Positions 12,934 through 36,481 of a DNA stretch of 64,000 bases are shown here, one piece after another; the first letter of the stretch is position 1, and each line of letters begins with the position of its first letter. The position numbers and the translations under genes were made by a program. Origin of the DNA: Oscillatoriales cyanobacterium (GTDB lineage: Bacteria > Cyanobacteriota > Cyanobacteriia > Cyanobacteriales > Laspinemataceae); NCBI GenBank assembly GCA_011390955.1, contig JAABRM010000012.1:62001-126000 (forward strand), read 5' to 3'. The notes under the pieces are model-generated. The model did no database searches and was not told where the DNA came from. It saw only the letters and a program-made list of their open reading frames with translations.

Positions 12934-14802
12934 TTAACCATCAGACTTTTGGGCAAAGCTAATTGGCAGAGTAATTGCAAATTCCGATCCTTGGCCTAAG
13001 ACTGAATTTAGTTCTATGTTACCTTGGTGTTTTTCAATAATTTGATAAGAAATTGCTAAACCTAGTCCAGTTCCTTTGCCCGGTGCTTTGGTGGTAAAAA
13101 AGTGGTCAAATATTTTGGCTTGAATGTCGGCGGGAATTCCCCCGGCATTATCGGCTATTTTAACACAAATATGCCCAGAGTCAACTTGGCTGGTAGAAAT
13201 GGTAATTTCCTTGGCAGGCTGGGAATCCCCTGGGGAAAGATCGCGCATTTCTAAGGCATCGATCGCATTAGCGACGATATTCATAAAAACTTGATTAAGT
13301 TGAGCCGGATAACATTCGATTAAAGGTAAATTACCATAGGTTTTATGTAGTTTAATGCCTGCTTTATTAAACCGATTGTTCAAAATTAGTAAAGTATTAT
13401 CCATCCCTTCGTGCAGATTGACTTCTTTCATCTCCGCTTCATCGAGACGGGAGAAATTACGCAAGGATAAAACAATTTGCTTGATGCGATCGCCCCCCAT
13501 TTTCATAGAATCCAGAACCTTGGGCAAATCTTCTAGTAAAAATTCTAGATCGATCGCTTCGATATGGTCTTGAATTTCTGGGACAGGATGGGGATAATGT
13601 TGCTGATACAGTTGGACCAACTCTAGGATATCTTGAGTATAATCTTTCGCGTGTTCTATATTGCCATAAATAAAACTGACTGGGTTATTAATTTCATGGG
13701 CAACCCCAGCCACCATTTGTCCCAAAGAGGACATTTTTTCATTTTGAATTAGTTGGGCTTGAGTTTGCCGCAAATCGGCAAAAGCATTTTCTAATTCTTG
13801 GGTATATTCTGCCGCCCATTTGATTAATTGATTCAGAGAATGAGCTAATAGTCCCACTTCATCTTCTGTGAGCACGGGGGCTTGCTGGTCAAATGTCCGA
13901 GATCCGGTGACTTGTTGGGCGACTTGAGTAACTTTCTTCAGAGGCAAAACAATGGCACGACTGGTGTAAAAAGCCAAAGCAGCAGCGATCGCAGCCGAAA
14001 GCAACATACTGGCTGCAATAATTTTAATTCGCAAATACTTAGCGTGAATTGCTTGACCATAAGCGGTTTGTTTTTCTGCTTCTGCGAGAGCATTTAATTG
14101 GGTTAAATGTTCGGAAATTCGCTCAAATTGCACGGAAATGTCATTGGCATTTTTCTGAGTCATCACCGATAAAACATATTGCTGAGATGCCGGAATATCT
14201 TCAGAGTCTAATTTAGCCGGATCGACTGCTTCCCAGACTGACTCAACCAACTGACGATAAGATAAAATAGTCGCCTCGTAATCCTCTACTAAATCAATTA
14301 AAGCGGCTACTGCTGTGGCGGAATATTCTGATTTATTTTGCCGGTTAGCCAGTTTAATTGTTTTCAAGCGGACATCAACTTGGCTAATGCGATCGTAAAA
14401 TTTATCTTTTTCATATTGAAACCAAATAGAATTACCCAGAGTGGGGACAAGGGCTTGTGGATGTAATCGGAGTTGGGTCACGACTTTATCTAAATGATTT
14501 AGGATAATTTGCTGTTCGCTGATAAATTTTAACCGTTGTTCAGCCGCTTCTTGGTAATAGTCACCGAGAAGTAAACCGCCTGTTGTGCCACAGATGGCAA
14601 TGCCAATCGCTAAGGTATAACTATAAGCAAATTTCTCGGTAATTCCCCAGCGATTAATAAATTTTTGTTGGAAAAACAATAATATTTTTTTCACGGGACG
14701 ACTGTGGAAAACTTTTTGAGGTTCTTTAATCGAAGTTGAAGCAGAGTTGATGTTAAATTTTTTGGTTTCTGATAAACCTGGTTGAAATTGACCAGACATC
14801 AT
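12934..14802 (-). CDS. membrane sensor histidine kinase (HAMP-HisKA-HATPase)
   Basis: A 622-residue kinase with two membrane segments (about 59-81 and 260-280) flanking a ~180-residue periplasmic helical domain, then HAMP (281-330), a coiled coil, HisKA with the phosphorylated His369 in GVAHEINNP, and a HATPase domain with its G1/G2 boxes (DNAGGIP, GKGTGLGLAISYQI). A ~30-residue insertion follows the H box, as in other cyanobacterial NtrB-like kinases. No response regulator is adjacent. The next gene encodes a PhnD-type binding protein, which could present a ligand to the periplasmic domain. The partner regulator is unknown. Confidence 0.9.
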   Translation of the reverse strand: MMSGQFQPGLSETKKFNINSASTSIKEPQKVFHSRPVKKILLFFQQKFINRWGITEKFAYSYTLAIGIAICGTTGGLLLGDYYQEAAEQRLKFISEQQIILNHLDKVVTQLRLHPQALVPTLGNSIWFQYEKDKFYDRISQVDVRLKTIKLANRQNKSEYSATAVAALIDLVEDYEATILSYRQLVESVWEAVDPAKLDSEDIPASQQYVLSVMTQKNANDISVQFERISEHLTQLNALAEAEKQTAYGQAIHAKYLRIKIIAASMLLSAAIAAALAFYTSRAIVLPLKKVTQVAQQVTGSRTFDQQAPVLTEDEVGLLAHSLNQLIKWAAEYTQELENAFADLRQTQAQLIQNEKMSSLGQMVAGVAHEINNPVSFIYGNIEHAKDYTQDILELVQLYQQHYPHPVPEIQDHIEAIDLEFLLEDLPKVLDSMKMGGDRIKQIVLSLRNFSRLDEAEMKEVNLHEGMDNTLLILNNRFNKAGIKLHKTYGNLPLIECYPAQLNQVFMNIVANAIDALEMRDLSPGDSQPAKEITISTSQVDSGHICVKIADNAGGIPADIQAKIFDHFFTTKAPGKGTGLGLAISYQIIEKHQGNIELNSVLGQGSEFAITLPISFAQKSDG

Positions 14803-33407: not shown

Positions 33408-33521
33408 CCCAACAACTTGCCAACTTGCCAACTTGCCAACTTGCCAACAATCAACAATCAACAATCAACAATCAACAATCAACCAACAACCAACAACCAA
33501 CAACAAACAACAAATAACATT
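33408..33521. repeat. tandem repeats caacttgc and caacaat
   Basis: Four copies of an 8-mer (caacttgc) followed by caacaat and ccaacaa heptamers, ending beside the stop codon of the convergent prohibitin-like gene. Confidence 0.8.
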
Positions 33522-34359
33522 ATTTTTCCAGTTCGTTGAGATTAAAGATAAATGGCACACTGGCAGATTTATCTCCCATAATCAAAACTTTGGGCATTTG
33601 AGCACCCCCTTCCCGCCAAGCTTGAATGGCTTCTTTCTGGAGTACCAATTGCCCCCCTTGGGCTTTCAAAGTTTCGGCTAACAGTTTTTGAGCTTCCGCT
33701 TTTCCTTTGGCGCGATTAATATCTGCTTGGGCTTCTTGTTCCGCCTCTTGAGCAGTATAAACCGCTCGTTGGGCTTGTTGCTCGGCAATTTGTTTTTCTT
33801 CCACAGCGCGAGCAAAGTCTTTGGAAAAATTCAAATCAATCACACTGGTATCGAGTACAAGAATGCCATATTTTTTTAACCGTTGCTCCAAGGCATTATC
33901 AAAATCTTGTTTCAGTTGGTTGCGTTGGGTAATCGATTCTTCGGCGGTGCGTAATGCGGCAGCAATTTTAAAAGATTCCTGGGTTTGGGGGGCAATAATT
34001 TTGGCGACAATATTCTCTAAACTCCCTTGAGTTCTTTTAATTGTCACCACTTGGTCTGGATCGAGCCGGAAGTTAATGGCAAATCTGGCGGTTAGTTCTT
34101 GCAGGTCTTTGGTAGAACTTTGGGCGGGAACTTCAAATTTTTGTACGGTGACATCATAGATATCGACGGTGGAAATAAACGGCGGTTTAAGGTGAATTCC
34201 TTCTAGTAAAGCCCCGTCTTGGGCTTTGCCTAAAATTCTGATTACTCCCGCTTCACCGGGGTTAATAATCGCAAAAGAACTCAAACTAATTAGAATCACT
34301 AATGCGGTAATAATTCCGGCAACTAATAAGGAGAAACTTTGAGTGTAAGAATTTTTCAT
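33520..34359 (-). CDS. prohibitin-family (SPFH/band 7) membrane protein
   Basis: The start is set at the ATG at 34359 (279 residues); the open frame before it is not protein-like. A membrane anchor at about 8-28 is followed by an SPFH domain (NPGEAGVIRILGKAQDGALLEG as its start) and a long C-terminal coiled coil (EQQAQRAVYTAQEAEQEAQADI). It matches cyanobacterial prohibitin homologues such as the Synechocystis protein Slr1106. The family forms large rings at membranes and helps with quality control of membrane proteins. No protease gene is adjacent. Confidence 0.88.
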   Translation of the reverse strand: MKNSYTQSFSLLVAGIITALVILISLSSFAIINPGEAGVIRILGKAQDGALLEGIHLKPPFISTVDIYDVTVQKFEVPAQSSTKDLQELTARFAINFRLDPDQVVTIKRTQGSLENIVAKIIAPQTQESFKIAAALRTAEESITQRNQLKQDFDNALEQRLKKYGILVLDTSVIDLNFSKDFARAVEEKQIAEQQAQRAVYTAQEAEQEAQADINRAKGKAEAQKLLAETLKAQGGQLVLQKEAIQAWREGGAQMPKVLIMGDKSASVPFIFNLNELEK

Positions 34360-34849
34360 TGAACTACCATTGAAGCAATATTGTATGAACGACTTTTGGA
34401 TGACAATTTGGCTGAAATTTGCCGCATAAATTTGGTGACTGAAATTTGGTGACTGAAACCGAGACTGGTGGGGTAATTTATGCCTTGCCTCTACCAGATA
34501 TATAGGTTTAAAGTAATTCCCCATTTAGCGATCGCTGTATTCAGATCGAGGCAATTGATTTCGCCGAGAAATCACTGGTCGATCGGTTGCGGGTCATTTT
34601 GCCAGTTAAGCATGGATGGGTATTGTCTGAAAAATCCGATCGCAGTTTTCCACAGATGGGGTGAATTTTCCACAGATTTTGGTCAGTTTTCCACAAATTT
34701 CCACAAAGCTATGATGAAAATCCCCAACCAGGGGAAAGCGATCGCCTAAAAAAGTTAGATGATCCTGGTTGCTTTCCCCTCGGTCGATGATGGGTTGAAA
34801 GCGATCGCCCCTGCCCCGGTTTCTTTGTCCTTTTGTCCCTAATAGAGAA
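34360..34849. other. intergenic region with DnaA-box cluster
   Basis: The gap between guaA and the prohibitin-like gene, both on the minus strand. It carries two copies of AAATTTGGTGACT (about 34428 and 34442), the four DnaA-box-like sites at 34646-34705, and an inverted repeat AGGGGAAAGC / GCTTTCCCCT (34730-34780). No gene is seen. Confidence 0.6.
34646..34705 (+). promoter_or_regulatory. cluster of four DnaA-box-like 9-mers, candidate oriC or DnaA-binding site
   Basis: TTTTCCACA occurs at 34646, 34666 and 34687, and ATTTCCACA at 34697, all in the same direction. The first three are 20 and 21 bp apart, about two helical turns. TTTTCCACA is a known form of the cyanobacterial DnaA box. An AT-rich, repeated stretch lies 200 bp to the left. 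This is what an origin, or a DnaA-titrating or regulatory site, would look like. dnaA and dnaN are not in the window. Confidence 0.55.
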
Positions 34850-36481
34850 TTATTCCCATTCAATCGTTCCCGGTGGCTTAGAGGTGACATCATAAACCAC
34901 CCGGTTTACCCCTGGAACTTCATTCACAATTCGGTTAGAAATAGTTTCCAAGAAATCATAAGGAACGCGAGACCAGTCAGCGGTCATGCCATCTTCACTG
35001 GAAACAAAACGCAGCACAATCGGATAAGCATAAGTGCGCTGATCTCCCATCACCCCAACGCTGCGGATCGGCAGCAAAACCGCGAAGGCTTGCCAAAATT
35101 TGCTATACACTCCTTGTCGGTTAATTTCTTGCCGGACAATGTGATCCGCATCCCGGAGAATTTCCAGCCGTTCTTCGGTGACTTCACCGAGAATCCGAAT
35201 GGCCAATCCGGGGCCGGGGAAAGGATGACGGTTGATAATTTCTTCCGGTAAACCGATGGATTTGCCCACTTTCCGCACTTCATCTTTAAATAGTTTGCGT
35301 AAGGGTTCAATCAATTTGAAGCGCAAATCTTTGGGTAAACCGCCGACATTATGATGGCTTTTAATTTTTACCGCCACTCGTTCGCCAGTTTTGGGATCGA
35401 CGTTGGTATCGGCAGATTCAATCACATCAGGATAGAGGGTTCCTTGGGCGAGATAGTCAAAGGGGCCAAGGCGTTTGGATTCTTCTTCAAAGACGCGGAT
35501 AAACTCATGGCCAATGCGCTTGCGTTTTTCTTCGGGATCGGTGATTCCGGCAATTTTGACTAAGAAGCGATCGCGGGCTTTGACATGAACCACGGGGATA
35601 TGGAATTGTTCGTGAAATAGTTTGACTAACCGTTCGGGTTCATTTTTCCGCATAAACCCTTGGTCAATAAACATACAAGTTAGCCGATCCCCGATCGCCT
35701 TATGCAGCAAAAAGGCCAAGGTACTGGAATCAACCCCTCCAGACAGGGCTAATAACACCCGCTTGTCTCCCACTTTGGCGCGAATTTCCCGAGTCGCTTG
35801 CTCGACAAATGCGGCCATTGTCCAAGTGGGCTCACATTCACAAATATGATAGACAAAGTTGCGGATTAGGGCTTGACCGCCGATAGAATGCACCACTTCG
35901 GGATGGAATTGAACCCCATAGAGTTGTTTCTCGTGATTGGCGATCGCGGCACAAGGGGTATTTTCTGTATGGGCTAAGACCTCAAAACCTTCGGGCAACT
36001 GCTTCACGGAGTCCCCATGACTCATCCACATCGTTGTCCCATCTTCTACATTCGTGAGTAAATCCGTGGGATCGTCGATTACCAAGGATGCCTTACCATA
36101 CTCACCCCGTTCGGCCCGTTCTACGCTGCCCCCTAATTGTTGAACCATCAACTGCATCCCGTAGCAGACTCCCAGAATCGGAATCCCCAAGTCCCAAATC
36201 CCCGGATCGCACTGAGGTGCGTTCGCATCGTAAACGGAATTTGGCCCGCCAGACAGAATAATCCCTTGGGGATTGAGTTGTTTGATTTGTGCAATCGTGG
36301 TTCGGTAGGATAAAACTTCCGAATACACCTGCGTTTCCCGAATTCGTCGGGCAATTAATTCGGAGTATTGAGAGCCAAAGTCTAAAATCACTAGCATCTG
36401 GCGACTGAGTGATTCCATCTCGGACTCGTTGATGCTTGATTCCTGCTGAGGAGTTGGTTGAGTAGATGTTTGTGCAATCAC
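34850..36481 (-). CDS. guaA: GMP synthase (glutamine-hydrolysing)
   Basis: A 543-residue bifunctional enzyme converting XMP to GMP. The N-terminal glutamine amidotransferase has its nucleophile Cys in [10 protein letters not shown] and His/Glu in QFHPEVVHS. The ATP pyrophosphatase has the P-loop [10 protein letters not shown], and the C-terminal dimerisation domain ends in the conserved [12 protein letters not shown]. It has a short Gln/Ser-rich N-terminal extension (about 27 residues) before the amidotransferase. It appears to be monocistronic. The end of the gene is followed by the DnaA-box cluster. Confidence 0.97.

Follow-up and report, generated by a model that had tools for sequence, protein, structure and literature searches.

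We found that a group of three consensus DnaA boxes beside guaA, in the genome of an Oscillatoriales cyanobacterium, is real, conserved and located away from the origin of replication. We think it rather likely that this triplet is a conserved off-origin site of cyanobacteria that would act on DnaA itself, be it by titration or through its nucleotide state, and not on the neighbouring genes. In this reading, DnaA would bind at the triplet, and the output of the site would be the control of DnaA.

The window, i.e. the whole stretch of 64,000 nt that we analysed, contains six exact copies of TTTTCCACA, compared with a mean of 1.15 copies in 100 shuffled sequences (the largest number in a shuffle was 5, and none of the 100 reached 6). 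Three of these copies form the group beside guaA, together with an imperfect fourth box (Table 1); the remaining three, at 14703, 18769 and 50469, are all found on the reverse strand, each of them singly. In 300 windows of the same length generated with an order-2 Markov model, no pairs or triplets with gaps of up to 30 bp occurred at all. The box group is beyond chance. Exact matching reproduced what had been predicted for this place, namely four boxes with their positions, spacings of 20 and 21 bp, a shared forward direction and adjacency to guaA; also the description of TTTTCCACA as a cyanobacterial form of the DnaA box holds, as this is the usual form according to passages of PMC4674748. 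Beyond the triplet, on the side away from guaA, lies a gene for an SPFH protein, with an ORF open to 34524 and a probable start at 34359. Many relatives have a gene for a cation-efflux (CDF) transporter here instead, encoded on the other strand.

Table 1. Features of the box group beside guaA and its surroundings (positions in the window)
Feature	Position	Strand	Remarks
DnaA box B1 TTTTCCACA	34646-34654	+	exact match; identical in same-genus genome G001, present in G002
DnaA box B2 TTTTCCACA	34666-34674	+	exact match; starts 20 bp after B1
DnaA box B3 TTTTCCACA	34687-34695	+	exact match; starts 21 bp after B2
Imperfect fourth box ATTTCCACA	34697-34705	+	seen at this place in this genome only
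Intergenic region with triplet	34525-34849 (325 bp)		AT 0.538; peak AT in 50 bp 0.68
guaA, GMP synthase	34850-36481	-	Pfam GATase and GMP_synt_C; 3' end faces the boxes
SPFH/Band_7 gene, far side of triplet	33520-34359	-	Band_7, E 5.6e-34

Comparison with G001 revealed identity at 27 of 27 positions in the boxes, but at only 18 of 23 in the spacers, 88 of 130 in the left flank and 57 of 150 in the right flank; in guaA, 1532 of 1626 positions are identical. The fourth box is probably incidental. The alignment with G001 has a gap at this box, which is absent from both same-genus genomes (G001 and G002) and was seen at the matching place in none of the other genomes among 57 guaA 3' regions. On these comparisons, the conserved unit is the triplet at 34646-34695. 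Its box spacing equals two helical turns. Among the 19 guaA-side triplets that we compared, spacings of 20 and 21 bp occur 11 times, 20 and 22 bp four times, 21 and 21 bp three times and 19 and 22 bp once, i.e. B1 and B2 are 20 bp apart in 15 of 19 and B2 and B3 are 21 bp apart in 14 of 19 triplets. A stretch following B3 (AAAGTTAA...) recurs in some lineages; because it is absent in others, we do not claim it as part of the element. The intergenic region gave no match in a plasmid collection, and a search for RNAs near the clusters found none at Rfam gathering scores and no tRNA (11 loci, including the C95 and C72 stretches of our genome).

The original prediction regarded the box group near guaA as a possible oriC. 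We reject this reading, since dnaA and dnaN and the box-bearing gap between them are located on another contig. The genome (7.12 Mb in 113 contigs, 95.1% complete) has one DnaA (C42:157846-159171) and one DnaN (C42:156306-157442), encoded by neighbouring genes, whereas the triplet lies on C72. The gap between dnaA and dnaN, which is the usual position of the cyanobacterial origin according to passages of PMC4674748, spans 403 bp and contains five exact boxes and one GTTTCCACA in both orientations, including one one-turn pair. The triplet site, with three exact boxes and ATTTCCACA, is the tighter group, but it neither lies at dnaA/dnaN nor holds the largest number of boxes in the genome. Both the gene context and the denser cluster at dnaA/dnaN are thus what had been named beforehand as evidence against an origin at guaA. 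The alternative offered at the same time, a DnaA-titration or regulatory site, fits our findings, with a mechanism that we infer.

GC skew, which had been named along with these, was uninformative: 20 samples of 20 kb from the complete genome of the same genus (G002) were without clear polarity, the window is without a sustained shift, and irregular GC skew is common in most cyanobacteria according to an excerpt of PMC7198777. In six related complete genomes, the triplet site is separated from dnaA by 0.393, 0.445, 0.429, 0.498, 0.319 and 0.085 of the chromosome. The guaA/CDF cluster thereby lies in the origin-distal half in five of the six (in G007, the sixth, it is only a pair), a number of genomes that is too small for a claim on position relative to oriC.

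For the analysis of conservation we used 59 genomes, our own included, in which a box-pair pattern together with guaA positions first showed similar triplets near guaA in many genera. The regions were then fetched by gene and not by boxes, and exact boxes were counted in the 700 bp past the stop codon. On the 3' side of guaA, 14 of 57 genomes have two or more exact boxes; the number is three in each of these 14, and the boxes are on the other strand than guaA. For CDF the corresponding number is 18 of 45 genomes, 11 of them with three boxes, on the strand of CDF. By contrast, no genome has two boxes in the 700 bp on the 5' side, be it of guaA (57 genomes) or of CDF (45 genomes), a few stretches being cut by contig ends (nothing is left of the guaA 3' region in G015 and of the CDF 3' region in G003, and 33 bp of the guaA 5' region in G043). 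Nine genomes carry the cluster at guaA alone, 13 at CDF alone (eight of these belong to one genus) and five at both, in total 27 genomes from 17 of 44 genera by our own count. Neither guaA nor CDF is therefore needed, since the cluster is found with either gene alone or with both, and the boxes persist where the guaA or the CDF gene no longer adjoins. Also the partner on the far side varies: we found CDF, SPFH, an alpha/beta hydrolase-like ORF and an Rpn-family-like ORF (both named by eye) and an ORF of 118 aa. We infer that in the older gene order the boxes stood between converging genes (CDF> B1 B2 B3 <guaA), an order also present in two genomes outside the order of our genome, G086 and G174, of four whose far side was examined. 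No cluster at either place is present in 22 of the 49 dnaA-bearing genomes, with G003 and G015 cut by contig ends and some genomes carrying a triplet elsewhere. Taken together, an off-origin, non-coding cluster of DnaA boxes with a kept position is present in 27 of 49 dnaA-bearing relatives and in five of nine class-level genomes examined. As a side observation, CDF and the triplet are often accompanied by the gene of a conserved cyanobacterial protein (~118 aa, no Pfam match), which lies 0.1-1.9 kb before the boxes (L074, L076, L077, L079, L081, L089 and others).

Within a sample of 146 genomes of the phylum, the exact triplet occurs in 19, namely in 14 of 50 genomes of the order (own genome included), in five of 14 from the class outside the order and in none of 82 from the rest of the phylum. 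Searching with a reversed pattern as control gave a single match in one of the 59 and in one of the 146 genomes. All five class-level genomes with a triplet were then examined with guaA, and in each of them the triplet is located 109-411 bp past the guaA stop codon, as predicted; four other class-level genomes have no triplet at guaA (nine of the 14 were examined for guaA). Only five of the 14 triplet genomes of the order carry it at guaA/CDF (G000, G014, G017, G026 and G045), four have an exact triplet upstream of a DUF2811 gene (G017, G029, G040 and G051), and others have it elsewhere; the 18 sampled genomes of the large family f33 all lack an exact triplet. A scan of 84,980 species yielded at least 117 triplet loci. 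Among the loci listed, at least 30 are near the 3' end of CDF (up to 1 kb) and/or of guaA (up to 600 bp; our own count, which includes some records identical to genomes of the relative set), and at least 33 have dnaA and/or dnaN in the same stretch, many of them non-cyanobacterial. The spaced triplet itself is not unique to cyanobacteria, and therefore the special part is its place at CDF/guaA. As loci L091-L207 were fetched by the exact triplet, they serve as context only, as do the box pairs listed for the 59 genomes, and our rates come from the gene-based counts and the class-level check.

Some single cases deserve mention. Picosynechococcus PCC 7117 (L144/L088) and L303 (G128, same genus group) have an exact triplet with 20/21 spacing near neither guaA nor CDF; for PCC 7002, dnaA has been reported as dispensable in passages of PMC7198777. 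G086 and G097 contain three exact triplets each. Those of G086 are found at guaA/CDF, at a distance of ~690 bp to a dnaN match and close to an ORF resembling DUF2811 by eye, while one of those of G097 lies at guaA.

We compared the presence of the guaA/CDF cluster with that of dnaA. None of ten dnaA-less relatives has the cluster, against 27 of 49 with dnaA (Fisher p 0.0012), and dnaA is also present in each of the eight other exact-triplet genomes that we checked. However, the p-value is weakened by the guaA tree, which leaves only three usable independent pairs on supported branches and in which the association is not significant. Eight of the ten dnaA-less genomes belong to a group with weak support, in which only two of 24 rows have the cluster. 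The association between cluster and dnaA is confounded by phylogeny. Among the dnaA-less genomes, G034 has a triplet elsewhere (its assembly may not include the dnaA gene), G052 has one elsewhere that reads as a 21-bp tandem repeat, and G028 has a box pair.

DnaA at these boxes might instead regulate transcription: it could form a roadblock where the genes converge with their 3' ends, act at a promoter reading antisense into guaA or, in our genome, occupy an operator of the SPFH gene, whose likely start lies ~290 bp downstream of the cluster. Indeed, the stretch 34360-34860 contains three promoter-like matches (0.8 expected), one of which (TTTCCA, 16 nt, TATGAT; 9/12) overlaps B3, and one terminator-like site on the reverse strand at 34736-34721 (0.8 expected). 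guaA is a purine gene, and the DnaA regulon of E. coli includes nucleotide synthesis according to passages of PMC11317965, but the same passages state that E. coli DnaA was not found within guaB by ChIP. A purL-like ORF adjoins the triplet in G015, and the second conserved cluster described below sits 5' of a gene. However, the usual place of the triplet is 3' of guaA and/or CDF, without a second box upstream of either gene in any genome, so that the boxes are not 5' of a constant target gene; the partner on the far side is not constant among relatives either, and at 47 sites inspected by eye no -10 motif follows B3 at a fixed distance. We consider regulation of transcription unlikely. Much less probable still is that a protein other than DnaA recognises the boxes, or that they are direct repeats left behind, for instance iterons of a plasmid. 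An array of TTTTCCACA with a 21-bp period, possibly iterons, does exist on the 4.4-kb plasmid pSOE2 of the endosymbiont Candidatus Pantoea edessiphila (L121), but the same exact 9-mer is present in the dnaA-dnaN gap of our own genome, the spacers have diverged while the place is fixed over several orders, and all ten dnaA-less genomes are without the cluster at guaA/CDF. A second or backup replication origin is likewise very unlikely: three exact boxes are as many as in the studied Cyanothece oriC (passages of PMC4674748), and several replication origins are used in Synechocystis 6803 and Nostoc 7120 (passages of PMC7198777), but the dnaA-dnaN gap on C42 holds more boxes and a peak AT in 50 bp of 0.74 against 0.68 at the triplet (a small difference), and no sustained skew shift is seen in the window, though in this genus skew carries no information.

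We therefore return to a function of the site itself, which we prefer to a promoter operator because the place is usually at gene ends, a constant target gene is missing and the site occurs with either neighbour alone. In line with such a function, 10 of 10 dnaA-less genomes have no cluster at guaA/CDF, and 8 of 8 further triplet genomes have dnaA. The boxes were kept while the surrounding genes changed, and therefore the site would probably control available DnaA. Three consensus boxes in direct repeat, two turns apart, would line up DnaA molecules in one direction along one face of the helix. The triplet might then hold DnaA away from oriC (titration), or it might assemble DnaA such that its nucleotide state is changed, in a DARS-like or a datA-like manner; titration, DARS-like and datA-like action are indistinguishable from sequence. 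In E. coli, the density of boxes peaks near oriC, as suits titration (passages of PMC12371093). The origin-distal place in five of six complete genomes is thus a poor fit to titration and a slightly better one to a distal control site. The gaps between the triplet boxes measure 10-13 bp, unlike the gaps of 2-3 bp in the box pairs that E. coli DnaA prefers (excerpt of PMC11317965).

Our genome has one other off-origin pair of boxes, C95:313-342, in the cluster stretch C95:292-342 (L009); the small gene that lies ~400 bp downstream of the pair encodes DUF2811 (PF10929). In relatives (L344-L393), this cluster lies 220-600 bp upstream of the gene, with a spacing of mostly 21-22 bp. Within the 700 bp upstream of DUF2811, at least one exact box is present in 46 and at least two in 32 of the 48 relatives in which dnaA and DUF2811 occur together (one genus contributes eight of these), and all boxes point to the gene; no exact box was found in these 700 bp in the three genomes that have DUF2811 but lack dnaA. 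The gene itself is found in 48 of 49 dnaA-bearing but only in three of ten dnaA-less relatives (Fisher p 2.7e-6), a link that is not significant when the tree is considered (one or two of three pairs agree, none disagrees; p 0.5-1). Among 14 control genomes, only Synechococcus elongatus has DUF2811. Comparing both sites in the 48 dnaA-bearing genomes with DUF2811, we found two or more boxes at both in 18, at guaA/CDF only in nine, at DUF2811 only in 14 and at neither in seven.

DUF2811 may thus be regarded as a candidate DnaA-linked protein, and we take its sequence to resemble a ribbon-helix-helix protein; a search of the open-licence literature returned no paper on it. The gene after DUF2811 in our genome belongs to the Amino_oxidase family, and depending on the genome, the gene following the second cluster is of the Amino_oxidase or the UPF0093 family (L009, L163, L166, L203, L206, L342 and others), which are unrelated. 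Presumably, the former is a hemY-like protoporphyrinogen oxidase and the latter is hemJ-like, in which case both would serve the same enzyme step. Tentatively, and with more doubt than confidence, we suggest that cyanobacteria possess an off-origin DnaA control system of two old fixed sites, the CDF/guaA triplet and the cluster upstream of DUF2811, that DUF2811 may encode a DnaA-linked regulator and that the system degenerates where DnaA is no longer required for replication. If our reading of the triplet as a DnaA control site is true, datA/DARS-like or titration control, as known from E. coli, would extend to cyanobacteria; a conserved off-origin DnaA-box site also offers a defined target for deletion. 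The accessible parts of the open-licence literature contain no report of such a cyanobacterial site that we could find. Off-origin DnaA clusters are known in kind; as far as this literature reaches, place and lineage are new.

The triplet shares features with several known systems. The cyanobacterial oriC at dnaN/dnaA in Cyanothece 51142, Anabaena 7120 and S. elongatus uses the same 9-mer TTTTCCACA, with three boxes in Cyanothece (passages of PMC4674748). However, it occupies another locus, and the dnaA-dnaN gap of our own genome has boxes in both orientations and a one-turn pair, whereas the triplet runs in one direction. Clusters of DnaA boxes outside oriC in B. subtilis have a titration role. 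They are like the triplet in being intergenic; eight intergenic DnaA-bound regions regulate transcription in this organism, as cited in passages of PMC7198777. The triplet differs from them in belonging to another phylum, in having other neighbours, in lying usually at gene ends and in lacking a constant target gene. Titration by box density in E. coli (passages of PMC12371093) resembles our reading of the triplet in that boxes are proposed to hold DnaA, but there the enrichment is spread around oriC (same source), whereas the triplet is compact and origin-distal in five of six complete genomes. DARS1, DARS2 and datA of E. coli are off-origin DnaA-box clusters that reset or hydrolyse the nucleotide bound to DnaA. 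IHF takes part at both DARS2 and datA, and Fis at DARS2 (passages of PMC4245941). The triplet differs from them as a direct repeat two turns apart, and the resemblance is one of kind, not of any sequence kinship shown; like them it is non-coding, lies off the origin, consists of few DnaA boxes and has kept its place, and the target that we propose for it would likewise be DnaA itself.
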